The translations under genes were made by a program, and so were the position numbers. From a virus, in IMG/VR virus record IMGVR_UViG_3300021379_001533, positions 1 through 22,670 of that record: a stretch of 22,670 nt of DNA, one strand, 5' to 3'. Under the pieces are notes generated by a model, which was not told where the DNA came from, did not search any database, and saw only the letters and a list, made by a program, of their open reading frames with translations. Shown piece after piece: positions 1 to 17,672 of the stretch. Position 1 is the stretch's first letter. Each line of letters opens with the position of its first letter.

Positions 1-860
1 ATAAAGTTCTCAGCCAACTCAGCACGAATGCCTCGCTCAACTGCCAACTCATTCTCTTTCATCCACTCTTCAGAGACGTAGGTAAGGTAGTCATCGATTT
101 TCTCAGACAACTTAGACTCAATCTCTTGCTTTTCCTCTTCGAGGGCAACATTGAAGTCTTCGTTTAACTGGTCGATTTTGTCGTTGACAAGATCAACTAC
201 GCGAGTAGCGACTGCTGCCTCAAAGATAACCATTGCATCTTTTTTGAACTCTTCGCTTAACTCAACATCTGCCTTTTCGAAAAGGGCATTGGCGTCAGTA
301 GAAATATCAAGTTGGAGGTCCTCAGCAGTGACTTTTTCTGCCTTGGCTTTGGCTTTGACTTCTTCTTCCTCGTCATCACCCATTTGTTTACCTTCATCTT
401 TCTTTTTCTTATCCATTGCTTTTTTCAATGCAGGTGGCATTTCACCTTCATCTACTTGCTCTTCCTCTTCGTCACCCTCTTCTTCCTGCTTCTTTGCCTT
501 GGCCTCTTCTTCTTCCTTGGCTTTGAAACCAGAGAGGACTTCTTCGACTTCTGCTTTTTTCATCGACGTAATCCTGTCTTGAATCTGTTTAATCATGCCG
601 AGTTTAGTATGGGGTTTAGGTTCTTGAACCTCCTCAACCTCTACTTCCTCGCCATCATACATTTTTTCTTGCTTAGCACTAGGATCTTTGACTGGAGTTG
701 CACTCGCTTCTTTGGATCCTGGTTTTGCTTTGCCTTTTGCAGTGGCGTTGCTTTTCATTTTCAGTTCTTTACTCTGACCATCTTCTCCACCCAGATCTTC
801 TGCTTTACCAGATTGACCTGGAGTCGCCACTTTAGTACCTTCTTCGTAAATATTTTCCAT
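1..860 (-). CDS. 22: gp22-like prohead core scaffold protein (3' end outside window)
   Basis: Internal scaffold of the prohead, around which the major capsid protein assembles and which the gp21 protease later degrades. About 286 codons are visible from the ATG at 860 and the frame is open to the window edge. The first ~170 residues are low-complexity Lys/Glu/Ala with runs of acidic residues. Past about residue 190 it becomes helical and matches T4-type gp22, including the stretch EEWMKENELAVERGIRAEL, very close to the T4 sequence around EWLAENKLAVDKG. A strong ribosome binding site (AAGGA) and a CTAAATA late-promoter box (893-887) lie just upstream, and gp21 precedes it, the standard T4 order 21-22. 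The charged N-terminal extension has no counterpart in T4 gp22 as I recall it. Identity is from motif and synteny and I am confident. Confidence 0.93.
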   Translation of the reverse strand, partial: MENIYEEGTKVATPGQSGKAEDLGGEDGQSKELKMKSNATAKGKAKPGSKEASATPVKDPSAKQEKMYDGEEVEVEEVQEPKPHTKLGMIKQIQDRITSMKKAEVEEVLSGFKAKEEEEAKAKKQEEEGDEEEEQVDEGEMPPALKKAMDKKKKDEGKQMGDDEEEEVKAKAKAEKVTAEDLQLDISTDANALFEKADVELSEEFKKDAMVIFEAAVATRVVDLVNDKIDQLNEDFNVALEEEKQEIESKLSEKIDDYLTYVSEEWMKENELAVERGIRAELAENF

Positions 861-895: not shown

Positions 896-1573
896 TTACC
901 GCAATCCAGAGGCAAAGATCTCAAACTTGTTGAGCCAGGTCTTCTGCCTCTCCTCACGGAGAACCTCATTCTTAGTTGCGGAAACCTTATTGATTTGTTG
1001 CTGGGCAAACTCAAGGTCAACAGCACGTAAAGCACCATTGTCCCAGATCCATTCCACACCCTCCATAATACCCTCAACGAAAGCATCGGGTGCCGAAGGA
1101 TCAGCAACTATGTCTGCGGCAGTCGCTAGAAAAAAGTCACTCTGGACTTCGTTAGCACCATCCTTACCTGGTTTGAGCGAACCCATTCCACGCGAGGATA
1201 CTCCTAATTTTGCACCTTCATTGATAAGATTTTTCACGATCTCTCCCATAGGAGTTCCCATGACTTTTGCCTTACCGATAAAATTATCACCATCCTGTTT
1301 TAGTTCAGTGATCATGTGCGAAACTCTATCAAGATTAACAGTCGGAGAATCAGGGTGACCCAACTCACCAAAAGCACGATTACTATCGATGTACTTTTCT
1401 GTGTATCTCTTGACTTCTTTAGATAATGTCTCAATGGGGTAAACTCTTCCATTGCGATTCTTGATATTGCCTTGGAGAAAAACACCTTCAATAAAATGCT
1501 TTTTGTCTCCTGCCTCATCAACCTTTGCCTCGCAAAGAACTAAGTCCTCATTGTATTCTTTTATTAGTTTCAT
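896..1573 (-). CDS. 21: gp21-like prohead core protease
   Basis: Serine protease of the T4 gp21 family (herpes-assemblin-like fold). It cleaves scaffold, capsid and internal proteins during head maturation, generally after Glu in a [L/I]-x-E context. The 225-aa protein shows the family hallmarks: GELGHP with candidate catalytic His73, and GVSSRGMGS with candidate nucleophile Ser126 or Ser127. The length is normal for the family (T4 gp21 is about 212 aa). The N-terminus contains KVDE followed by AG at residues 17-22, a possible self-cleavage site. The ATG at 1573 lies one base after the stop of the upstream basic protein, so the two are probably co-translated from the late promoter at 1973. 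Downstream is gp22. It is the likely processing enzyme for the leader-bearing proteins elsewhere in the window. Confidence 0.95.
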   Translation of the reverse strand: MKLIKEYNEDLVLCEAKVDEAGDKKHFIEGVFLQGNIKNRNGRVYPIETLSKEVKRYTEKYIDSNRAFGELGHPDSPTVNLDRVSHMITELKQDGDNFIGKAKVMGTPMGEIVKNLINEGAKLGVSSRGMGSLKPGKDGANEVQSDFFLATAADIVADPSAPDAFVEGIMEGVEWIWDNGALRAVDLEFAQQQINKVSATKNEVLREERQKTWLNKFEIFASGLR

Positions 1574-1574
1574 T

Positions 1575-1916
1575 TTAACGTCCCGGAGTTTTTATACCAA
1601 ACTTTTTTCGAGCACGGAGAGCACTCCCGACCTTACGGCCAAGAGCCATCTTATACCCTGCCCCTTTTGCTCTTTGTGTCCGTACCTTTTTCTTGATAGC
1701 GAACTTCTTTTTTAGTCTTGCAGCACCCTGAAGAGTCGGCACTCCCTTAGGTAAGCATTTGGGTGGTTTGTCTTTTCCCATCATCTTCTTTTTCTGCCCA
1801 GGAGGGCAGAACCAGAATCTAACTTTTTTGGGAGTCTTACCTCGACCACCACCTGTCATACGATACCCAAGTACGGGTCCTTCAGACAAAAAATCAGAAA
1901 ACTTGCTCAGAGTCAT
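1575..1916 (-). CDS. basic prohead-core/internal protein with capsid-targeting-like leader
   Basis: A 113-aa protein I cannot name. It occupies the place where T4 has the small core genes 67 and 68, just before gp21. The N-terminus MTLSKFSDFLSE followed by G fits a T4 capsid-targeting leader with a gp21 site after Glu12. The remainder is strongly basic (many Lys/Arg, e.g. KKKFAIKKKVRTQRAKG) with FCPPGQKKK and PPKCLPKG, whose two Cys may or may not be functional. Processed, it would be a small cationic protein of the kind packaged with DNA. The start is taken as the ATG at 1916, whose first base is the last base of the TAA of a 14-codon upstream ORF. A GTG at 1925 is the alternative and no clear ribosome binding site supports either. 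A late promoter lies at 1975-1967. Confidence 0.75.
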   Translation of the reverse strand: MTLSKFSDFLSEGPVLGYRMTGGGRGKTPKKVRFWFCPPGQKKKMMGKDKPPKCLPKGVPTLQGAARLKKKFAIKKKVRTQRAKGAGYKMALGRKVGSALRARKKFGIKTPGR

Positions 1917-1960
1917 TAACGCCACCAGTTACAATTTGGTTGGGGATACTGGATCCCCAT
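1916..1960 (-). CDS. possible 14-aa leader peptide ORF
   Basis: An ATG at 1960 opens a 14-codon frame (MGIQYPQPNCNWWR) ending in a TAA that shares one base with the ATG of the basic core protein. This is the same TAATG junction used between bona fide genes here. AAAGG lies two bases before the ATG, close for a ribosome binding site. The late-promoter box just upstream would put the transcript start almost at this ATG, and a 7-bp hairpin lies inside it. It may be a translated leader that couples translation to the core protein, or a chance frame in an untranslated leader. Confidence 0.3.
   Translation of the reverse strand: MGIQYPQPNCNWWR
1941..1959 (-). promoter_or_regulatory. hairpin at the 5' end of the core-protein/gp21 late mRNA
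   Basis: A perfect inverted repeat, TGGGGAT and ATCCCCA separated by CCAGT, gives a 7-bp GC-rich stem with a 5-base loop. It would sit within the first ~20 bases of the late transcript starting from the CTAAATA box at 1973. No T-run follows, so it does not look like a terminator. A 5' stabilising or translation-controlling stem is the likelier role. Confidence 0.5.
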
Positions 1961-7109: not shown

Positions 7110-7525
7110 TATTTCCCTACTGGTCCAGTCGGTTCACTGTCACCCTTAAACCAGAAATCTGAGATCTTGGTAAAGGTCGCTAGAAAACCACCGACTAAAA
7201 TGTTAAGTAAATCTCTGAATGAGTCCGAGATTTGAAAGAAAAATAGTATGGTAACAAGGACAATAAAAATACCCATTGTCAACAGACTCATCGTTACCCT
7301 AGCAGCAAACTGCCGTGTTCTTTGACTTGCTTCTAATTCTGCTTCGTGTACAATTAAATCAACTGGTACACCTCTTTGAATCGCATCAGCAATCTCATCT
7401 AACTGTGTATGTGGGTTGCCTACCTTTGGCGGTATGGCAGGTTCTTCCACTTGCTCTTCAGCCATGTCATTCACTTCCTCTGATGGTTTTGCCGTCAGAT
7501 CAACTTTCTGATTCGGTGTCAACAT
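7109..7525 (-). CDS. small membrane protein, holin-like
   Basis: 138 aa with a polar, acidic N-terminal ~70 residues and two hydrophobic segments. The first is VTMSLLTMGIFIVLVTILFF (about residues 77-96); the second is LLNILVGGFLATFTKI (about 107-122), followed by a short charged tail. The arrangement, and a second segment ending before FKGDSEP, resemble small phage holins, but I recognise no definite family. The ATG at 7525 has AAGGAA eight bases upstream and overlaps the preceding gene by 26 bases. An ATG at 7465, also with a good GAGGAAG site, would give a 118-aa form, so two products from dual starts, as in holin/antiholin pairs, are conceivable. No endolysin gene lies in the window. Confidence 0.7.
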   Translation of the reverse strand: MLTPNQKVDLTAKPSEEVNDMAEEQVEEPAIPPKVGNPHTQLDEIADAIQRGVPVDLIVHEAELEASQRTRQFAARVTMSLLTMGIFIVLVTILFFFQISDSFRDLLNILVGGFLATFTKISDFWFKGDSEPTGPVGK

Positions 7526-8966
7526 AATATCGTTCCTTCAACTCTGAGGAAATGTTACCAAATCTCAGATACTGCATCTCACCTGATTGTTTGTTTTGTA
7601 CGATAATTGGTGCAGTAGGATTCTTCTTACCGTACTCTTTGATTTTTTCAACTCCATTTGACTCACCAACGACCTTGTTCCATCGTTGGTATTTTTCCCG
7701 ACCCCACTTACACATATCGTAGACGTCAGGAGTCACCTGAAAAATAGGTGTACCTGTTTCCTCTATCCCCTCTTTCATTATAGCAATCAACTTTGACATT
7801 CCTCGTCCGAGGGCACGATTACCAAGAACAGAATCCTTCCAAGTCTCACCCGTATGCTTTTTCCATACTCTCATAAGACCCTTGCCTGTCTTGGAGTCAA
7901 CTGCCCACCCATCAGACTTTGGATTGTATTCTATTCTGCCGTATTTTTTGTGCTTGATGACGATATCATCTGCTGTCTTACCCATGACCTCAGCAGGGAC
8001 TTTGTGTTTCTTAAAGAGATTGTCGAGTTTGAACTCATCAGATCCTTCATTGACTTGTACCTCTTCGACCTTCTCAACCTCTTCTTGTTCCTCGAGTTCT
8101 TCCTCAGTAATCAAACTTGCTTCGGTCATCCAAAGTGCCTCAGATATCTGTGTTCTCTGGAAATCATCTAATGCATTGGCTAGTGTAACAAATTCTTCCT
8201 CGCTTAGCTCCTCGAGGTCCATGCCAATATCTTCAGCGAACTGCATTGTAGAATCTACTGTAGTCTCGATCCATTCATCACGTTCGAAAAGTGTTTGCAT
8301 GGCGATATCTACAGATTCGCTCTTCATCTTTTTCCTCTTAAATGGTTCAGTGAAACCTTTTATGTGACCTGTACCTGCGTTATTGGTTGGGATTTCTTCT
8401 TGCTCTACAGGTTCGACCTCGGAAATATTACCACCTACAAGTTCATCTACAAAATCCTGGAGACCTGCCTTTTTAAGAGCACGATCATCTAATTTTGCTC
8501 GCTTCATTTCTTGCTTGAACTTCCTGACATTGCCTTTGGATTTCTCCCACATGTCAGAGATTTTTTGGATCATGTCCTCGTCAGTTGCAGGATTTTTTGC
8601 AACCTCTAGCATGACTTGAACCAGTCTGTCCGATACTTCGTAACCCATTTCTTCCTTCATTAAGAGTGCAGTCGCTGCTGCTACGCCAGCAAGCATGCTA
8701 CCACCTCCTGGTATGAATGACATTAACTTTTTAATATTCCAAATTACCCTGTCGAGAAGGGTGTATGCTTTTCTCTCTTCATCAGACTCAAGTTCCTTCA
8801 TCTTTTTTAGGATGTTTCCCTTATCGTCGATGATACCGAGTTTATATGCTTTTGTCTTCTTGAATGGAGTCGCCATTTTCTTAACGAAAAAATACGCAGT
8901 CGCTAAGTTAAAAGCACCCGTCAGTAGTCCCTCATTAAGGTTTTGTTGTCGGGAGTATGATTCCAT
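7500..8966 (-). CDS. conserved T4-like marine phage protein of unknown function
   Basis: 488 aa. The N-terminal ~110 residues, including ATPFKKTKAYKLGIIDDKGN, then AYTLLDRVIWNIKKLM and a hydrophobic glycine-rich stretch (IPGGGSMLAGVAAATALLM), match a pattern I recall in many T4-like cyanophage and marine phage proteins with no known function. The middle is acidic (around EEELEEQEEVEKVEEVQ). The C-terminal half is mixed alpha/beta with no motif I know. The start begins ESYSRQQNLNEGL; L-N-E followed by G might be a gp21 site. The ATG at 8966 has GAGGAAC five bases upstream and overlaps the previous gene by 32 bases. A virion or head-core location is plausible from its late-region context. Confidence 0.8.
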   Translation of the reverse strand: MESYSRQQNLNEGLLTGAFNLATAYFFVKKMATPFKKTKAYKLGIIDDKGNILKKMKELESDEERKAYTLLDRVIWNIKKLMSFIPGGGSMLAGVAAATALLMKEEMGYEVSDRLVQVMLEVAKNPATDEDMIQKISDMWEKSKGNVRKFKQEMKRAKLDDRALKKAGLQDFVDELVGGNISEVEPVEQEEIPTNNAGTGHIKGFTEPFKRKKMKSESVDIAMQTLFERDEWIETTVDSTMQFAEDIGMDLEELSEEEFVTLANALDDFQRTQISEALWMTEASLITEEELEEQEEVEKVEEVQVNEGSDEFKLDNLFKKHKVPAEVMGKTADDIVIKHKKYGRIEYNPKSDGWAVDSKTGKGLMRVWKKHTGETWKDSVLGNRALGRGMSKLIAIMKEGIEETGTPIFQVTPDVYDMCKWGREKYQRWNKVVGESNGVEKIKEYGKKNPTAPIIVQNKQSGEMQYLRFGNISSELKERYYVDTESES

Positions 8967-9363
8967 CAAGTTCCTCTGTTGCTTTATCCATTGCCTCTCT
9001 TTCGATCTCTATATCTGATACCTGTATCAAGGCACCATTGATGCCATGCACTTTCTTAGGGCATCTATCGAGAATCATGAGAAACATTTTAAGTAGTGAC
9101 CAGTTGTCAGGAGCAGTCTTAAAGAATAATAATCTCTGTGCCGCATCGAACTGGAAAACATTAAAATAGACTATAATATGATTCATAGTCAATCGACACT
9201 TTAACACATCGTTCCTACGATAGTTGTTAAACTGGCGATTGATGTATTTTGTAATATTTACGTCAGAGACGAACTCTCTGGTTGTCGTATACTCTTTCAT
9301 CCTGTAATTTTGAAAGGCATACAACAACCAGTTTTCATTCGTCAGATTATCAAAAATCTGCAT
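8935..9363 (-). CDS. conserved T4-like phage protein (DUF7207-like, from memory)
   Basis: 142 aa. The opening MQIFDNLTNENWLLYAFQNY, the central YINRQFNNYRR and the MNHIIVYFNVF segment match a small all-helical family widespread in T4-like marine phages, which I recall as DUF7207 with unknown function. The usual pattern is FDNL..(N/D)N(F/W)..YA..(H/N)Y then (R/K)(Y/F)IxR..NRY. It lies directly after the fibre-like gene (15-base gap, no evident ribosome binding site) and before the 488-aa conserved gene. The last ~30 residues (from about residue 113) overlap nothing conserved and look charged. Confidence 0.8.
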   Translation of the reverse strand: MQIFDNLTNENWLLYAFQNYRMKEYTTTREFVSDVNITKYINRQFNNYRRNDVLKCRLTMNHIIVYFNVFQFDAAQRLLFFKTAPDNWSLLKMFLMILDRCPKKVHGINGALIQVSDIEIEREAMDKATEELDGIILPTTKP

Positions 9364-12085: not shown

Positions 12086-13432
12086 CTATTTAGGTTCGTT
12101 GCGTATGTCTGGATTCACAACGAATCCATTTTTCTGCATCCATCCTGTTCCCATAAGAACAGGGTAGTTCATATGACCACGATCTGCCAGGGAAAATCTG
12201 ACAGGGTATTCTTTCTTACGGAATGTCATTGGAATGGTGACCACGGGTCGCCTTTCCTTATCTGTACCAACTGCACCCTGAACAGTCTCAAACTCATCAA
12301 CAGGAAATGTTAATGTCTTCCCTGTATCTCCGACTTTGAAAATGGCACGATTATTCTTTGTTACCTTGAGTCCTCTGGCATCAAGTGTAGATGAGCCAGC
12401 ATTTCCTGTATCCATTTTTGCTAGCATCTCACCCCACTCAAACTTGACAGGTTCGATAACACCGATCTCAACTTTTTTCTTCGTCCAGTTTTTATCATCC
12501 TGGAAAAAGGTATGCATGTTTCTCACGACGTCTCTGCCATCGATGTCTTTTTTCTCGTTGATGGAATAGTATTTTCCAGAGACGCCAGGAGAACCATTTA
12601 CCTCGATGATAGTGTATCCAAAATCACCGACTCCAATATCAACTCCACAGAATCTCATGTTCATAGCATGTGCTGCTAGCTCAGCGATTCGTACCATCTC
12701 AGGTGTAGGTCGATAGGGTTCGTAGTTTGATCCGAGTTTTATATTGGTACGGAAGTCCTTGTCTGCCTTAAATCTTCTCATGGCAAAAATCGCCTCGCCT
12801 AATAAAACTCCGACTCGAATATCGTATTTGATAGGAAGGTATTGCTGAAGTAGGATTTCTTTGTTGTCAACGTCAAAGGCATCTACGACAGACTGTAGAG
12901 ATTCCATTGAGTCTATTTTCATGACACCCTTGCCCTGTGATCCTGTAACAGTTTTTAGGATCATTGGAAACTTGCCTCCGACAGTCTTCACTGCGTCCTC
13001 GAGTACGGCAGGATGAACTATGGATGTTATCGGAGTGACAAGTTTCGCATCAGTAAGAATGCGAGAAGTCGTGAGTTTGTTTCTCGCATTCTTCATTGTG
13101 CCGATCTCATTGAGCATAGACACACCGATCGTCTCAAGAGATTCTACGACACCTAACCTTGACTCATCTGTCAGAACAGAACCTAAAGGAATAGCAAAAG
13201 TCTCATTGACATTTATTTGAAGACTATCCATTTTACCATTGTAGTTGTTAATGGTAATCTTTCCAGACCTTACTTTTTTGGTATCAAGATAGCATTCATC
13301 TACGTAGACGATGTAGGTATTTTCCATATCTCCCCAAAACTCCTGGGGATTGCTATCCATTGGGTTTGAGATAGTCAATACAAGGAAGGTCGGTTTACTG
13401 ACCTCTTCAAACATTGTCTTAAAATGCTTCAC
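12086..13432 (-). CDS. RimK-like ATP-grasp ligase fused to RimB-like (zinc/aspartyl) protease domain, with capsid-targeting-like leader
   Basis: 448 aa. Residues ~85-310 are an ATP-grasp of the RimK kind (ATP-dependent carboxylate-amine ligation). They show Lys160 and the glycine loop in MILKTVTGSQGKGV, LLQQYLP at 194-200, the DIRV strand (Asp204), and the metal-binding IIEVNGSPG (Glu277, Asn279). Residues ~328-432 resemble the RimB / ATP-dependent zinc protease family: MDTGNAGSSTLDA (Asp341) corresponds to its DTGA motif, and DRGHMNYPVLMG to its RxxMxYPVLLG motif. In bacteria RimK and RimB modify and demodify protein C-termini such as that of S6; here they are one chain. The N-terminus MKHFKTMFEEV looks like a shortened capsid-targeting leader with a site after Glu10. 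It starts on an ATGA overlap with the nucleotidyltransferase. Substrate unknown. Confidence 0.88.
   Translation of the reverse strand: MKHFKTMFEEVSKPTFLVLTISNPMDSNPQEFWGDMENTYIVYVDECYLDTKKVRSGKITINNYNGKMDSLQINVNETFAIPLGSVLTDESRLGVVESLETIGVSMLNEIGTMKNARNKLTTSRILTDAKLVTPITSIVHPAVLEDAVKTVGGKFPMILKTVTGSQGKGVMKIDSMESLQSVVDAFDVDNKEILLQQYLPIKYDIRVGVLLGEAIFAMRRFKADKDFRTNIKLGSNYEPYRPTPEMVRIAELAAHAMNMRFCGVDIGVGDFGYTIIEVNGSPGVSGKYYSINEKKDIDGRDVVRNMHTFFQDDKNWTKKKVEIGVIEPVKFEWGEMLAKMDTGNAGSSTLDARGLKVTKNNRAIFKVGDTGKTLTFPVDEFETVQGAVGTDKERRPVVTIPMTFRKKEYPVRFSLADRGHMNYPVLMGTGWMQKNGFVVNPDIRNEPK
12087..12094 (-). promoter_or_regulatory. late promoter box before the charged 334-aa gene
   Basis: Minus-strand CCTAAATA is embedded in the last codons of the ATP-grasp gene (the TAG stop at 12088-12086 overlaps the box). 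The next ATG is at 12068, about 20 bases on, with AAAGGAAC between. Same box as at the other late junctions, here with CCT rather than CCCT. Confidence 0.6.
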
Positions 13433-14037
13433 TTTACTCCCATTCCTTTCCGTACTGCGATGAACATTTTCTTGACATCAGGTTCCTTGAGTTTTTCAGG
13501 TGACCCAAGCATAAAATGTGAATAATCATTATCCTTAGCAAATGCACGCATTTTACTAGCAGACATCCCTTCAGCACCATCTGCATCAGGATCTCTTTCG
13601 CCTGCTGAGATTACTTGTAGGTCGACTCCAATGTCTTTATCTTTATCAGCATGACCTGAATACTTTTTGAACATAGCAGTATATCCTGGGACTCTATCAG
13701 ATCCAGCAATAAACATTACCTTACCGTAACCTTCTGCTTTTAATCTGTAGACGATGGAAAAAGGGTTATCCGATTTGTTTTTACTATATACCATCAAATT
13801 TTTACCAAATGCTTTTTGGCAAATCTTGAATTTGGTATCGTAATCTAATGGATCTTTTTTCTTATCCTGAGTTTTAGAGACGAATACCATTGGCTTGCCT
13901 CCCTGTTGCTGGGCAACCCTCGATACGGTCTGGACAAGTTTCTGATGACCGATCGTAGGAGGATTCATTCTTCCGAATGTAACGACGGCAACCTTTTCGT
14001 TTTTCGCCTCGCGAATGAACTGCGTATAAGTTTTCAT
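13429..14037 (-). CDS. HxGH-type nucleotidyltransferase with T4 internal-protein-like capsid-targeting leader
   Basis: 202 aa. After a 10-residue leader the protein is a cytidylyl/adenylyl-transferase fold of the NMNAT/NadR-like kind. It has GRMNPPTIGH at 22-31 (the T-I-G-H form of the nucleotide-binding HxGH motif), FIAGSDR at 109-115, and SASKMRAFA at 159-167 in place of ISSTxIR, which binds the triphosphate. The substrate cannot be told from sequence; nicotinamide mononucleotide is one candidate. The N-terminus MKTYTQFIRE followed by A differs at only three of eleven positions from the T4 internal protein III leader as I remember it (MKTYQEFIAE followed by A), so gp21 cleavage after Glu10 is likely. 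The start is the ATG at 14037, just after the upstream stop. The frame is open further upstream but only as a shadow of the preceding gene. Confidence 0.9.
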   Translation of the reverse strand: MKTYTQFIREAKNEKVAVVTFGRMNPPTIGHQKLVQTVSRVAQQQGGKPMVFVSKTQDKKKDPLDYDTKFKICQKAFGKNLMVYSKNKSDNPFSIVYRLKAEGYGKVMFIAGSDRVPGYTAMFKKYSGHADKDKDIGVDLQVISAGERDPDADGAEGMSASKMRAFAKDNDYSHFMLGSPEKLKEPDVKKMFIAVRKGMGVK

Positions 14038-14038
14038 T

Positions 14039-14959
14039 TTACTTTTTCTTAGGACGGACTGTAGTAACTGATCCCTTGCCAGGAACTCCACCTTTACCAC
14101 CCCAACCCTCTTGCTTCTCTTTGACCTTCTCCTCCCAGTACTCTTTGGTAGACTGAGACCGAGTATCAGTAGCAAGTTTGACTGCCTCTTCCCAAGACAA
14201 CTCTTCCTTTTTGGTGATCTTGTGAGCAGTGTCTTTGTCCATGGTGACCTTGTGAGTCTTGTCGCCAATTTTTACTTCTTTTTTACCTGCCTTTGCGGCA
14301 TGAGCAATCTTGGCCATGAAGTCTTCGTCTTGAACTTTCTTCTTTTCCTGAAGATTCTCGACTTGTTTGAGATCAATATTCATATCGTCCTTTAATCTTT
14401 TGCGTTTGAGTTCCGGTGCTGGAACGTCGAAGTTATCTTTTACGATGTTGTAATCAAACATCTTACCTTTATACTTACCTGACTGGGGAACACCTGAAAT
14501 GGTATTGCCCTGAGGTTTTTCAAACTTAAAAACTACTTTATCATCCTCTTTGGCACCATTCTGTCCTATGGCTGGCCACCAGTCATATTTCATCTGACCT
14601 TTGAGAATAAATCCTACGGTGGTCTTGTCAATATAACCACTCATTGCTAGATTTGAGGGCATCGTCCTCTCATCAATAATCTCTTCTGATTCTACTGGAG
14701 ATTTCGTTTCTTTTTTCTTGACAGGATTCTCATGACCCTCAGTATCTTCTACGTTGTCCTTGTGCTCAGGTTTCTTACCTGTAATAAATTTTTCGCGATC
14801 GTCCTTCTCCGAGGCATGCTGGAAAAACTTTTCCTCGTAGTCAGATGTCTTTTTGGAAATAGGGTGCTCTTGAACACCATCTTTCTGACCAGGCGTATGG
14901 CTAGACTTTGCCTCATCTACTTTATTGACTACATTTTTGATTTGGTGTTCAAGTCTCAT
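14039..14959 (-). CDS. charged hypothetical protein of the packaged-enzyme operon
   Basis: 306 aa, unrecognised. The N-terminal ~100 residues are polar and low-complexity with HTPGQKDG and many Lys, Glu and Asp. A more ordered segment follows (about 105-190, with MSGYIDKTTVGFILKGQMKY), then Lys/Glu-rich helices, and a Gly-rich basic tail (GWGGKGGVPGKGSV). VNKVDE followed by AK at residues 12-19 is a possible gp21 site, similar to KVDE-A in gp21 itself. It begins on an ATGA overlap with the 275-aa gene and ends one base before the nucleotidyltransferase start, so it is part of the same translation chain. Its composition suits a protein resident in the head interior. Confidence 0.75.
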   Translation of the reverse strand: MRLEHQIKNVVNKVDEAKSSHTPGQKDGVQEHPISKKTSDYEEKFFQHASEKDDREKFITGKKPEHKDNVEDTEGHENPVKKKETKSPVESEEIIDERTMPSNLAMSGYIDKTTVGFILKGQMKYDWWPAIGQNGAKEDDKVVFKFEKPQGNTISGVPQSGKYKGKMFDYNIVKDNFDVPAPELKRKRLKDDMNIDLKQVENLQEKKKVQDEDFMAKIAHAAKAGKKEVKIGDKTHKVTMDKDTAHKITKKEELSWEEAVKLATDTRSQSTKEYWEEKVKEKQEGWGGKGGVPGKGSVTTVRPKKK

Positions 14960-15783
14960 AAGAACCTTTTGTATTCTTTCTTAAAGTTTTTAGCCCACTC
15001 AATATCATACTTTTCTAATCCTTTAGTATTTAAAATATTGAGTTCTTTTTTATCCATAGCAACACCAAATTTAGCATCGGTCAAAAGTTTACCTAATCCT
15101 GCCGATGGAGTTAATGGTTCTTGCTTTAACCAAAGTGTTTCAATGCCTTCTACCAGTGCTTTAAGTGGAAGCATTTTCCATGCTTTGTCTTTTTCTACTT
15201 TTAATAATGCTTCTTTGACTGCAGATTTCATTTGCCCTGGTCCATTTTTATAAGCACTGAAGCAAATTTTGAATCCATCATCATTTACATAATCTCCAGT
15301 ATCAACTCTGCCTTCCCCAAGTTCATGTTCTATCTGATCCTCAGGAGAAAAGTGTCGTGGTTCCATAGGTTGTACTTGACCACCAAATCTATCTGCAAGA
15401 TAGCACTGAACCAAAGGGTGATAAGAATCATCTACTGACATAAGATCCCCTATCGGAGTCTCATAAGGATTCCAACCATCTTCCATGTCATTCATATCAG
15501 CAAATACTTCTTCCCAATCTTTATCGGGATCTTTTCCTTCGTCTTCTAGATATTCCTCCATGCCCTCTTTGTCTTCAAAATTCTCATACCACTCATCATA
15601 AAAGAGGTCCTTGAAGTTTTTCGCATATTCATCTTCTATCCCACGATTTTCTAAATCTTCTTTAATTTTCTTAGGAGAATAAACATGAACATAATAGTCT
15701 ATCAACAAACGAATGGCAGATAAAGGTTCTATCTTAAGAGTTTTATCAGGTGCCTCTGCTAAAAATGTTTTTAATGTTTTCAT
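14956..15783 (-). CDS. acidic hypothetical protein with capsid-targeting-like leader
   Basis: 275 aa, unrecognised. The leader MKTLKTFLAE followed by A is a strong match to the T4 internal-protein capsid-targeting pattern with cleavage after Glu10. The processed protein is very acidic between about residues 38 and 115 (YDEWYENFEDKEGMEEYLED and similar), with many aromatic residues. The C-terminal part is less charged and more ordered (from about 165, FKICFSAYKNGPGQMKSAV). No catalytic motif was found. The ATG at 15783 lies one base after the stop of the KWDG gene, and the 3' end overlaps the next ATG by four bases. Confidence 0.8.
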   Translation of the reverse strand: MKTLKTFLAEAPDKTLKIEPLSAIRLLIDYYVHVYSPKKIKEDLENRGIEDEYAKNFKDLFYDEWYENFEDKEGMEEYLEDEGKDPDKDWEEVFADMNDMEDGWNPYETPIGDLMSVDDSYHPLVQCYLADRFGGQVQPMEPRHFSPEDQIEHELGEGRVDTGDYVNDDGFKICFSAYKNGPGQMKSAVKEALLKVEKDKAWKMLPLKALVEGIETLWLKQEPLTPSAGLGKLLTDAKFGVAMDKKELNILNTKGLEKYDIEWAKNFKKEYKRFL

Positions 15784-15784
15784 T

Positions 15785-17041
15785 TTACCAACTCTTTATT
15801 GCGTTAAAGTTCGCCATAGAGAACTCTAAACGATCTACGATTTTGACAGCATTGCCTTTCATCTTATCTACTGCGACAAAACCTTCGGGACCCGTAACTT
15901 TGAATCCCTTCTCGGTTTTGACGAAAGTATCTGTCATTTGTTTTACTTTTTCGAGTTTCTTGACAACGAAGTCTTTGGCAATCTGTATAGCATTCATCAA
16001 ATCAAACACTACTTTAACCTTTCCTTTCTGTTTTGTCAAGTCGGAAATAAACTTTTTGAGATCAGCAGTTTTGGCGTCGATGGTTTTTTGAGTTTTAAGT
16101 TTTGCAATCTTTTTCATCTGCTTCTCTTCGAGGTATGCTAGCAGTTCAATAGCCATCTTTGCTGTATTACCGATCCTCTGACCCTGGCGAATCTTAGAGT
16201 TCATAAATGCTTTTATGTCTACTCTCAGTTTTTCGTCAGATGCAAATCTCTCGATTAGAGACTTGTCAACCTTTGTTGCGATTTTCCTAGCATCCTTTAT
16301 CTGGCTAGAAAAATCCTTACTTTCTTTCGCAGTAAAAACTGCTGACCCTGATGCGTCAGAGTACTCAGCATCTTGAATCCATACATCTTTCGGTGCCCGT
16401 AGTTTATTTACGGCAGGATTAAATGATGCTCGGTACTCTGATAAGTCTCCCTTTCCTGAATAGTCAGTATGGAAAACTACACCGAGTTTGCAACCTTTGA
16501 TTTGTTTTGCGAGGGGAGTAGATTTAGGAATGGCGTAGACGATAGTATTTGGCTGGAACGTAACGTAGTCTGTTCCGTCGATCGTTTTGTCTACCAGATC
16601 TTCTGCCGTAAACATCATGTCTCCTTGGAAGACATGGCCATCTGGGATTCCTACATCAGCGAGTTTTGCTAACGCAGTTTTCAGTTTAGGATTGAGACCA
16701 GACTCTGGATAGAGATCGTCTACATCTTTTGCTGTCTTACAGAGTTTTGGATTCTGATTAAAGACAGATTTGGTCCCAACGAAAAACTGACCATCAGAAG
16801 GATCCTTGCCACAGAAAATAGCAGGTGCTCCATCCCATTTGGTTGTTATTTTTACGGATGATTTCGAACTGCCATTCATCATCTCTTCTAGTGCATCCAA
16901 AAATTTGAATGCTAATTGGACTCCCTCAACACCTCCGTTGAGGACCTCGTCTTCTAGATGTTCGAGATGCAGGTTTTTGCCTTCTTTACCCTCGACAATA
17001 AACCCTGATTCGGGAGCACGAAATGACGAAAATGCTAGCAC
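15785..17041 (-). CDS. KWDG nucleotidyltransferase/ligase-like protein (DUF6267-like) with capsid-targeting-like leader
   Basis: 418 aa. I recall relatives annotated as a phage family of unknown function (DUF6267). The sequence reads like a covalent nucleotidyltransferase (polynucleotide ligase/capping fold). VKITTKWDGAPAIF holds a KxDG motif I with candidate nucleotide-accepting Lys68; HVFQGDMMF (136-144) fits motif III; GPEGFVAVD (384-392) fits motif IV (EGxV); and AVKIVDR (398-404) fits motif V. The long helical insertion (about 245-380) between motifs III and IV is unusual and weakens the case. The first 17 residues end SGFIVE followed by G, a capsid-targeting-like site. The start is a GTG at 17041 with AGGGG five bases upstream; an out-of-frame ATG just before it terminates at once. 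It heads the operon behind the late box at 17075. Confidence 0.78.
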   Translation of the reverse strand: MLAFSSFRAPESGFIVEGKEGKNLHLEHLEDEVLNGGVEGVQLAFKFLDALEEMMNGSSKSSVKITTKWDGAPAIFCGKDPSDGQFFVGTKSVFNQNPKLCKTAKDVDDLYPESGLNPKLKTALAKLADVGIPDGHVFQGDMMFTAEDLVDKTIDGTDYVTFQPNTIVYAIPKSTPLAKQIKGCKLGVVFHTDYSGKGDLSEYRASFNPAVNKLRAPKDVWIQDAEYSDASGSAVFTAKESKDFSSQIKDARKIATKVDKSLIERFASDEKLRVDIKAFMNSKIRQGQRIGNTAKMAIELLAYLEEKQMKKIAKLKTQKTIDAKTADLKKFISDLTKQKGKVKVVFDLMNAIQIAKDFVVKKLEKVKQMTDTFVKTEKGFKVTGPEGFVAVDKMKGNAVKIVDRLEFSMANFNAIKSW

Positions 17042-17066
17042 ATTACCCCTATAAAAGATTGCCTTC

Positions 17067-17075
17067 TATTTAGGG
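17067..17075 (-). promoter_or_regulatory. late promoter box of the packaged-enzyme operon
   Basis: Minus-strand CCCTAAATA overlaps the TAA stop (17072-17070) of the metalloprotease-like gene. It is identical to the boxes before gp22 and before the gp21 unit. The transcript would start near 17060, with AGGGG and the GTG at 17041 following. The five genes down to 12086 have gaps of at most one base, and no other box lies between them. Confidence 0.65.
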
Positions 17076-17672
17076 TTTTACCATTTTTTGTAATACTTCT
17101 GCTTTGAGTGCGGTAAGATGGTAGAGTTCAGATTTGACCTCTACTGATTTGACCTTTTGAAACCTTTCGAATACGTCTGACTCATGCAGTGTACCCTTTC
17201 GTACGTAGTCATATGCAAGTTCAGTAGAGTAGGCATCGACCTCAAGAGGGTCTACAAAATCATACAGAGGATCATTTGAAGGTTGTATGTCCTTCTGATC
17301 TGCATGGGTGTATTCATGCAGGACGCATTTCGTAAACTCATGCGACAGTTCAGTAAGTATCGGGAGAGTGATAGGGACCTCTCTCCTGTAGACAGGTTTG
17401 GAGCAAAAGAAACTAATATCTATCCTCGGACTTTTCCTATGCTCATCAGGAACATAAGTCGATCCATCGAGGTAGCATTCATTTGATTGCAGTCTCGTTG
17501 CGATTTTGACTTTGAATGAAGTAGGAACTGAGAGAACTGTTGTCAGGTCTCGAGTCAGATTACCTTCTACTTCATCCCATGAGGTTGCGTGGTGATTGAC
17601 AAAATGATCCCAGCATTGATGTGCCGCATCTATCGTACCAAAGATACGATGCATTCGTTTTTCTTCGAACAT
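17070..17672 (-). CDS. HEXXH zinc metalloprotease-like protein
   Basis: 200 aa. The helix CVLHEYTHADQ carries HEXXH (His119, Glu120, His123), the zinc site of metalloproteases. The downstream PLEVDAYSTELAYDY (Glu144) provides a plausible third ligand on a second helix, as in gluzincins. No signal peptide or membrane segment, so it is likely cytoplasmic or packaged. I do not recognise a specific family; possible roles are a host-protein protease or a virion maturation factor. It follows gp41 after only six bases, and its stop codon overlaps the late box of the next operon, so it is probably expressed with the replication genes. The ATG at 17672 was chosen; a second at 17654 with GAAGAA upstream is possible and removes six residues. 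Confidence 0.75.
   Translation of the reverse strand: MFEEKRMHRIFGTIDAAHQCWDHFVNHHATSWDEVEGNLTRDLTTVLSVPTSFKVKIATRLQSNECYLDGSTYVPDEHRKSPRIDISFFCSKPVYRREVPITLPILTELSHEFTKCVLHEYTHADQKDIQPSNDPLYDFVDPLEVDAYSTELAYDYVRKGTLHESDVFERFQKVKSVEVKSELYHLTALKAEVLQKMVKP

Follow-up and report, generated by a model that had tools for sequence, protein, structure and literature searches.

Candidate T4-type capsid-targeting leaders on proteins of a late operon in a marine T4-like bacteriophage

The window, i.e. the whole stretch of 22,670 nucleotides analyzed here, derives from a marine T4-like bacteriophage, an uncultured fragment known here from its DNA sequence alone. Its relevant features are as follows; a slash within a leader marks the proposed cut.

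17067..17073, minus strand: CTAAATA late-promoter-like box before the operon (exact match)
15785..17041, minus strand: 418-aa DUF6267 protein, predicted RNA/DNA-ligase fold, KWDGAP motif (PF19782, E=9e-101)
16991..17041, minus strand: 17-residue leader of the 418-aa protein, MLAFSSFRAPESGFIVE/G
14956..15783, minus strand: 275-aa protein without named relatives
15754..15783, minus strand: 10-residue leader of the 275-aa protein, MKTLKTFLAE/A
14039..14959, minus strand: 306-aa protein without named relatives
14912..14959, minus strand: weak leader candidate of the 306-aa protein, MRLEHQIKNVVNKVDE/A
13429..14037, minus strand: 202-aa cytidyltransferase/NMNAT-like nucleotidyltransferase, NPPTIGH and SASKMR motifs (PF01467, E=4e-4)
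14008..14037, minus strand: 10-residue leader of the 202-aa protein, MKTYTQFIRE/A, nearly that of T4 IPIII
12086..13432, minus strand: 448-aa RimK-type glutamate ligase fused to a RimB-like retropepsin domain
13403..13432, minus strand: leader of the 448-aa protein, MKHFKTMFEE/V (or MKHFKTMFE/E)
1575..1925, minus strand: 116-aa very basic protein adjoining gp21 (phrog_3503 head scaffolding protein, E=1e-5)
1881-1925, minus strand: leader of the 116-aa protein, VALMTLSKFSDFLSE/G
896..1573, minus strand: gp21 prohead protease, the presumed processing enzyme (PF03420, E=1.5e-34; phrog_207, E=6e-77)
1..860, minus strand: start of a putative gp22-like acidic scaffold gene, cut by the window end (position after gp21, acidic composition)

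An earlier note on this DNA had placed five consecutive genes behind one CTAAATA box, and re-checking bore out all five ORFs with their coordinates, as well as the box (17073-17067, minus strand). Further such boxes precede a 334-aa gene (12093), the 116-aa gene (1973) and the gp22-like gene (893), the latter so called by its position and acidic composition. Since the box at 12093 belongs to the next gene, that of 334 aa, the five genes plausibly constitute a single transcription unit. Automatic start calling was wrong for the 202-aa and 448-aa genes (longer overlapping frame, internal ATG), and leaders in the window were therefore judged by the start codons conserved among relatives. These codons (ATG, GTG or TTG) occupy a constant place, while the sequence upstream diverges, and they yield leaders of 10 residues for the 202-aa and 275-aa proteins and of 17 residues for the 418-aa protein. 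The GTG start of the 448-aa gene overlaps the preceding stop codon (GTGA), and the relative L007 has ATG at the equivalent place.

The first product, the KWDG protein of the earlier note, belongs to DUF6267, a family with matches in 467 phage records. K68 and D70-G71 of the KxDG motif are invariant or nearly so (alignments A1, A5). In the AlphaFold model (pLDDT 81.7), residues 1-22 score below 50, i.e. the leader is predicted to be disordered. When this model was compared by VIA-align, the best 50 rows were all polynucleotide ligases (Z 5.8-8.5, rmsd 3.7-5.0); plain Foldseek against the PDB gave no match at E<=0.001, and a PDB sequence search with the DUF6267 profile found no relative. The prediction of an RNA/DNA-ligase fold is based on VIA-align and the motif. 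T4 RNA ligases 1 and 2 and the Naegleria RNA ligase share the predicted fold and the KxDG nucleotidyltransferase motif; however, DUF6267 is only about 10% identical to them and carries a long helical insertion.

For the 202-aa protein, the proposed assignment as an HxGH nucleotidyltransferase held for the family, but the motif itself is TxGH (NPPTIGH). The Pfam match lies just above the cutoff (PF01467, E=4e-4), and the cytidyltransferase family phrog_3041 matches from residue 1 with E=1e-53. G30, H31, S159 and R164 of the TIGH and SASKMR motifs are invariant and K162 is nearly so (alignment A2); a PDB sequence search with the transferase profile found no relative. The suggested fusion of an amide ligase to a protease in the 448-aa protein could be specified as RimK (PF08443, E=4e-29) followed by a RimB-like domain (PF05618, E=2e-9) with its DTG motif kept; the best profile matches were 7qyr (E=1e-47) and 9g59 (E=7e-8). 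Both the S6 glutamate ligase RimK and the retropepsin-like RimB are thus represented, but in the phage as a single fused polypeptide with a leader. Neither the 275-aa nor the 306-aa protein matched Pfam, PHROGs or named phages. Relatives of the former occur in L002 and L009 and of the latter in L002-L009, and the predicted structure of the 275-aa protein is poor (pLDDT 45).

The N-termini were compared with those of T4 (NC_000866), in which IPII and IPIII both begin with MKTYQEFIAE/A and IPI with MKTFKEFTSTTTPVSTITE/A, and the site in gp23 reads FLTE/A. Mutagenesis in T4 has shown that residues 4, 7, 8 and 10 of the capsid-targeting sequence matter (PMC9026906). The 202-aa leader fits the T4 register (aromatic residue 4, F7, I/L8, E10) at every position and the 275-aa leader at all but position 4, which is L; the 418-aa leader combines F4 and F7 with an extended spacer, as in IPI. 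All three carry a gp21-type site, i.e. L/I-x-E followed by a small residue (FIRE/A, FLAE/A and FIVE/G in the 202-, 275- and 418-aa proteins, respectively). The 448-aa leader reads F4, M7, F8 and E10, and its site fits poorly, either as FEE/V or as MFE/E; the leader noted earlier is there, but the cut may fall one residue before the place assigned to it (M/L/I-F-E/E). The 306-aa candidate lacks the F/Y..F[IL] pattern, and its VDE/A is likewise a poor site. Our grading (202, 275 and 418 aa strong, 448 aa fair, 306 aa weak) agrees with the one made before, whereas the broader statement that all five proteins look tagged stands for the three strong cases, only in part for the 448-aa protein and only weakly for the 306-aa protein.

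An alignment of homologues, which had been suggested as a check, revealed a conserved leader pattern on variable linkers and bodies. Among 20 DUF6267 homologues, F4, I/L15 and E17 are present in 20/20 each and F/Y14 in 18/20, and the leader positions next to these columns vary. Relatives of the 202-aa protein keep K2, an aromatic residue at 4, F7, I/L/V8 and E10, with positions 5, 6 and 9 variable; those of the 306-aa protein keep [VI]DE. Tandem paralogues of the 275-aa type in L009 are identical at 11/12 leader residues, their bodies being about 25% identical, and in phage C48C1 the leader is found on five genes with unrelated bodies. ATP-grasp homologues at other genome positions bear it as well (Mosig, MQVQPFKNYLEE/A; Melnitz, MTQKFSQFITE/E); the YerA41 homologue bears a structural-protein annotation and no recognisable leader. 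Up to about 100 residues may separate leader and domain (S-SM1, S-SCSM1), and the leader nevertheless remains at the protein start.

The leaders could in principle reflect chance, if phage proteins often had N-termini rich in F, L or I and containing a Glu. A loose motif ([FYLMIV][FLIVM].E[AGS], residues 7-20) was rejected as too noisy, giving 12 matches in T4 itself, several of them in non-virion proteins. A fixed-register motif, ^M.{1,4}[FYWL]..[FYMLI][ILVFMT].E, was drawn up with the leaders already in view, its register being taken from the published T4 mutagenesis (PMC9026906). It matches 3/5 genes of the operon. If the 27/748 matches among other gene starts are taken as background, the most generous choice, three or more matches in five have a probability of 4e-4; with the internal-window rate of 0.0037, this drops to 5e-7. 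Against the same 27/748 other genes, the motif is enriched in nonredundant nucleotidyltransferases (19/36, p=3e-16) and DUF6267 proteins (10/22, p=8e-9), and many of the 27 matches lie inside the same phages' cluster or show full leader likeness. Across partly and fully read relatives, it occurs in 12/98 genes of the gp41-gp61 cluster but in just 6/480 outside it (p=2e-6); the scanned stretches of S-SM1 (186 genes) contain a single match, the nucleotidyltransferase detected in the virions of this phage. With these enrichments and the invariant F4/E17-type columns in independent homologues, a chance origin has a negligible likelihood; judged from the sequences, these are genuine leaders of T4 type, both conserved and modular.

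Mass spectrometry, according to the available parts of the reports, has found a nucleotidyltransferase in virions of the T4-like cyanophages S-SM1, S-SZBM1, S-SCSM1 and S-CREM2. These cytidyltransferase/NMNAT proteins (T4-GC190) are of the same family as the 202-aa protein (30-42% identity), and all four are leader-bearing (MKKFSAFLNE/A, MKSFLQFLKE/A, MKNFSSFLTE/A and MRFRQFIIE/A); in S-SM1, S-SZBM1 and S-SCSM1 the gene lies between gp41 and gp61, as in the window. In those parts of the reports they are presented without a packaging signal, and no new N-terminus is given for the virion protein. Two of the studies caution that the enzyme may be carry-over, and its emPAI in S-SZBM1 is low. It is nonetheless quite improbable that the virion finds are contamination by abundant late proteins, with a leader serving only for removal in the prohead, since the detections in four phages are independent, and in S-SZBM1 the neighbouring leaderless DUF6267 protein was not detected.

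Homologues with the domain but no leader, which the earlier note had named as evidence against its reading, do exist for DUF6267, namely in S-PM2, S-SZBM1 and S-SM1. As the S-SZBM1 protein is also missing from that phage's published virion list, the leader seems to be a real module which some family members carry and others do not. For S-SM1, the absence of DUF6267 (T4-GC71) from virions refers to the main text of the report, which names T4-GC15 and T4-GC190 among cyanophage core proteins. The leader would also not be the sole way in, given that other virion-detected neighbours in S-CREM2 and S-SCSM1 have no evident one. The nucleotidyltransferase of Pelagibacter phage HTVC008M, MKTLKELLRKKV, lacks the Glu. 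In this phage and in Melnitz (Methylophilales), both of them cultured relatives, variants of the leader occur on DUF6267 and other proteins.

Taken together, the data make it likely that these late proteins begin with capsid-targeting leaders of the T4 type, whereby the proteins would be packaged, cut by gp21 and ejected. This is highly likely for the 202-, 275- and 418-aa proteins and somewhat likely for the 448-aa protein, but rather unlikely for the 306-aa protein. During head assembly, the leader would be bound by the scaffold core and the tagged protein then enclosed in the prohead. gp21, which had been reported in the window and whose identity was borne out by both family matches and by conservation of the catalytic His (GHP) and Ser (GVSSRG) aligned with T4 gp21, would cut after the conserved Glu, releasing the mature enzyme into the capsid interior, from where it would depart with the DNA at infection. 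Packaging of the tagged members is well supported, published virion presence being confined to nucleotidyltransferase homologues, and the enzymes probably enter the host together with the viral DNA. During the initial minutes of infection, we infer, the transferase might serve nucleotide or NAD metabolism, the ligase-fold protein might join nucleic acid ends, and the RimK-RimB protein might glutamylate a host protein, ribosomal or other; host defence targets might also be acted upon.

Adjacent genes of one operon have the leader in common, and it might instead be an interaction helix joining their products in the infected cell, unrelated to packaging. This is very improbable: register and invariant Glu are identical to those of the T4 capsid-targeting sequence, the protein encoded next to gp21 bears the motif as well, as do ATP-grasp proteins at different loci of other genomes, and leader-bearing members are found in virions. 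Alternatively, the proteins may enter the prohead and be cut as head-core or DNA-condensing parts, like gp67, gp68 or IPIII of T4, rather than as effectors for injection, their enzyme folds acting in assembly or being left over. Similar sites on T4 core proteins, assembly defects of T4 IPIII mutants (PMC9026906) and the very basic 116-aa protein with its scaffolding match are consistent with such a role, to which we assign a minor though appreciable probability. A passive core protein would not need catalytic motifs, so that retention of KWDGAP, TxGH and DTG counts against it, as does T4 Alt, an enzyme that is both packaged and ejected (PMC9026906).

Packaging and delivery of the tagged enzymes, our preferred reading, would extend a known T4 mechanism to a conserved enzyme operon of Kyanoviridae. 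IPI, IPII and IPIII resemble the window proteins in their leaders (10-19 residues; F/Y4, F7, I/L8, E10, then Ala/Gly), kept on differing bodies, in late-type promoters and in a gp21 encoded by the phage. However, they are small, unrelated and basic, whereas the tagged proteins of the window are for the most part larger, identifiable as enzymes and encoded by a single conserved operon; homologues of just one of them are known from virions. The ADP-ribosyltransferase Alt, with its short gp21-cut N-terminal propeptide, is likewise comparable, but has another activity, and the window encodes several enzymes at once. In phage P1, an N-terminal signal brings the counter-defence protein DarB into the capsid (PMC9024508); that signal comprises 30 residues and belongs to another phage lineage (PMC9024508). 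Tentatively, and with somewhat more doubt than confidence, we propose that Kyanoviridae and related marine and freshwater T4-like phages have a conserved, expandable gp41-gp61 cargo operon encoding the ligase-fold DUF6267 protein, the nucleotidyltransferase, RimK-RimB and many orphan proteins, and that a shared leader loads these products for joint injection. If so, pre-made enzymes would repair nucleic acids or cofactors or modify host proteins before phage transcription. The leader would provide a simple sequence rule for capsid-riding proteins in a large and abundant group of aquatic phages, and a mechanism for the repeated, doubted nucleotidyltransferase finds in cyanophage virions. The question of injected cargo would become a list of testable genes, including the DUF6267 family with its predicted ligase fold.

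A sixth leader case, which had been missed before, is the 116-aa protein adjoining gp21 (SKFSDFLSE/G). In its mature form it would have a pI of 11.9, with 32 K+R vs 1 D+E, and its gene has its own CTAAATA box.

The tag on the proteins of the operon is genuine and T4-type. The window that carries it is a 22.7-kb piece of a T4-like myovirus genome, encoding gp21 (His and Ser kept and aligned with those of T4 gp21), a gp41-type helicase, a UvsX-like protein, DNA polymerase, primase, ThyX and ribonucleotide reductase. The gene order resembles the one in Kyanoviridae; apart from gp21, names were read from translations compared with annotated relatives. The operon comprises five close-packed genes (12086-17041, minus strand), which are named by protein length and listed with their leaders; the slash marks the predicted gp21 cut.

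17073-17067, minus strand: CTAAATA box upstream of the five genes
418-aa gene, minus strand: DUF6267 (PF19782, E=9e-101); leader MLAFSSFRAPESGFIVE/G, long form as in T4 IPI
275-aa gene, minus strand: without named relatives; leader MKTLKTFLAE/A
306-aa gene, minus strand: without named relatives; weak leader MRLEHQIKNVVNKVDE/A
202-aa gene, minus strand: cytidyltransferase/NMNAT-like; leader MKTYTQFIRE/A
448-aa gene, minus strand: fusion of RimK ATP-grasp (E=4e-29) and a RimB-like PF05618 domain (E=2e-9); leader MKHFKTMFEE/V
12093: second CTAAATA box, upstream of the gene after the operon

Because an identical box precedes a 116-aa gene and a gp22-like gene, both beside gp21, the operon looks late. 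The 200-aa gene directly upstream of it (17070-17672, minus strand) encodes a HEYTH sequence of the HExxH type known from zinc metallopeptidases, and has no leader and no Pfam or PHROG match.

According to the T4 record, IPII and IPIII begin with MKTYQEFIAE/A and IPI with MKTFKEFTSTTTPVSTITE/A, and the gp23 site reads FLTE/A. Mutagenesis of the IPIII leader assigned targeting to residues 4 and 7 and processing to residues 8 and 10 (PMC9026906). Of the leaders proposed in the earlier note, the strong ones (202, 275 and 418 aa) were borne out by this register, by conservation and by enrichment. Starts of the leader genes are kept at the same site in relatives, as ATG, GTG or TTG; the 448-aa gene has a GTG overlapping the preceding stop codon, and ATG in the related locus L007. 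The 202-aa leader follows the pattern MK[TS][YW]xxF[ILV]xE[ATV] across close relatives (L002-L009). In 20 DUF6267 proteins 33-94% identical to that of the window, F4 and E17 never change, I or L always fills position 15, and 18 of the proteins have F or Y at position 14, while positions 2, 3, 5, 6 and 16 vary. This conservation does not serve the fold, since residues 1-22 are disordered in the AlphaFold model (pLDDT <50), the body of which is good.

The leader also occurs on five genes with different bodies in phage C48C1, and it remains at the start of the S-SM1 and S-SCSM1 transferases despite up to ~100 residues inserted before the domain. Members of the ATP-grasp family carry it in phages Mosig (MQVQPFKNYLEE/A) and Melnitz (MTQKFSQFITE/E), at genome positions differing from that in the window. 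Tandem 275-type genes in L009 (9262-10858) share 11 of their first 12 residues and ~25% of the remainder; leader and upstream sequence were retained in this duplication, the body having strongly diverged.

For quantification we used a fixed-register motif (^M.{1,4}[FYWL]..[FYMLI][ILVFMT].E), which was defined with the leaders already known, but takes its register from T4. It matched 19/36 nonredundant transferases (Fisher p=3e-16) and 10/22 nonredundant DUF6267 proteins (p=8e-9), as compared to 27/748 other genes on the same loci, many of these 27 being neighbours within the same cluster. In the named relatives and the window, the gp41-gp61 region (for the window, the operon itself) yielded 12/98 matches versus 6/480 elsewhere (p=2e-6). 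The transferase was the only match among 186 genes in the S-SM1 stretches scanned. In the window operon three of five genes match, with P from 4e-4 to 5e-7 depending on the background.

There is good support for packaging of the transferase family, which the earlier note had proposed. Its cyanophage homologue T4-GC190 is reported from virions by mass spectrometry for S-SM1 (PMC3037559; MKKFSAFLNE/A), S-SZBM1 (PMC9146016, Table 1; MRFRQFIIE/A), S-SCSM1 (PMC9602691; MKSFLQFLKE/A) and S-CREM2 (PMC10665884, Table 3; MKNFSSFLTE/A). In their accessible parts these papers propose no packaging signal, two of them consider carry-over possible, and several neighbours listed for S-SCSM1 and S-CREM2 virions have no evident leader. 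In S-PM2, the transferase and a DUF6267 domain without leader form a single protein (591 aa, MATQNKHLEHLED), and PMC3037559 lists T4-GC190 as encoded by this phage but undetected in the virion. This contrast with the leader-bearing virion transferases is only suggestive, because that older study also missed genuine tail and head proteins. The S-SZBM1 DUF6267 protein (MAKNTHLEHLED) has no leader and is missing from the virion table of that phage (PMC9146016). For the other strongly tagged members packaging is likely; we infer that the tagged proteins would be cut, injected and put to use in the host, as the note had envisaged. The packaging mechanism itself is already known from T4, and in the literature searched, mostly outside subscription journals, a capsid-targeting sequence was not reported for either these enzymes or this group of phages.

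A homologue of the 448-aa protein in Yersinia phage YerA41 (YerA41_066; L109:4710-6131), likewise a RimK-RimB fusion, is annotated as structural protein. Its place among the genes suggests that it is g112, which is listed as particle-associated; no clear leader was recognised in it. Among solved structures, alpha-L-glutamate ligases (7qyr, E=1e-47) and PF05618-type proteins (9g59, E=7e-8) match the 448-aa protein. NPPTIGH and SASKMR motifs are present in the 202-aa protein. DUF6267 carries KWDGAP, and its best 50 matches in VIA-align are all ligases of RNA or DNA (top match: Z 8.5, rmsd 3.8, 185 residues). An RNA/DNA-ligase fold is predicted and graded only as likely, since Foldseek alone gave no significant match and a Z near 8 is borderline.

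The earlier note had missed the 116-aa protein beside gp21 (1575-1925, minus strand), which has its own CTAAATA box, a strong leader (SKFSDFLSE/G) and a very basic mature form (pI 11.9); one near relative was found (L131). Between DUF6267 and transferase, where the window has no such gene, relatives encode a small protein of very basic character (pI 11-12) that frequently bears the leader:

L129:5630-6001, L111:11254-11646, L103:803-1171 and ~35 further matches: small basic proteins in the DUF6267-transferase gap

These proteins resemble the T4 internal proteins more closely in type than the enzymes do.

Further starts were observed. The 489-aa gene of the window (7500-8969, minus strand) has NLNE/G close to its start, possibly a weak site; the gene is conserved in relatives. 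Transferases of L044, L063, L066, L079, L095 and others have short starts, e.g. MLLRELFEA or MKLRQLFEA, which are more like T4 Alt (MELITELFDE) than like the leader of 10 residues. In a 116-aa gene of L008 (6340-6687), the 306-aa protein's central domain follows immediately on a leader-like start, MKKYKDLFE/M; the body is the same, the leader different. Finally, the 105-aa protein S-SZBM1_191 (L125:37312-37629, minus strand), which adjoins a virion structural gene, starts with MKSFKSFLSES and is another candidate cargo.
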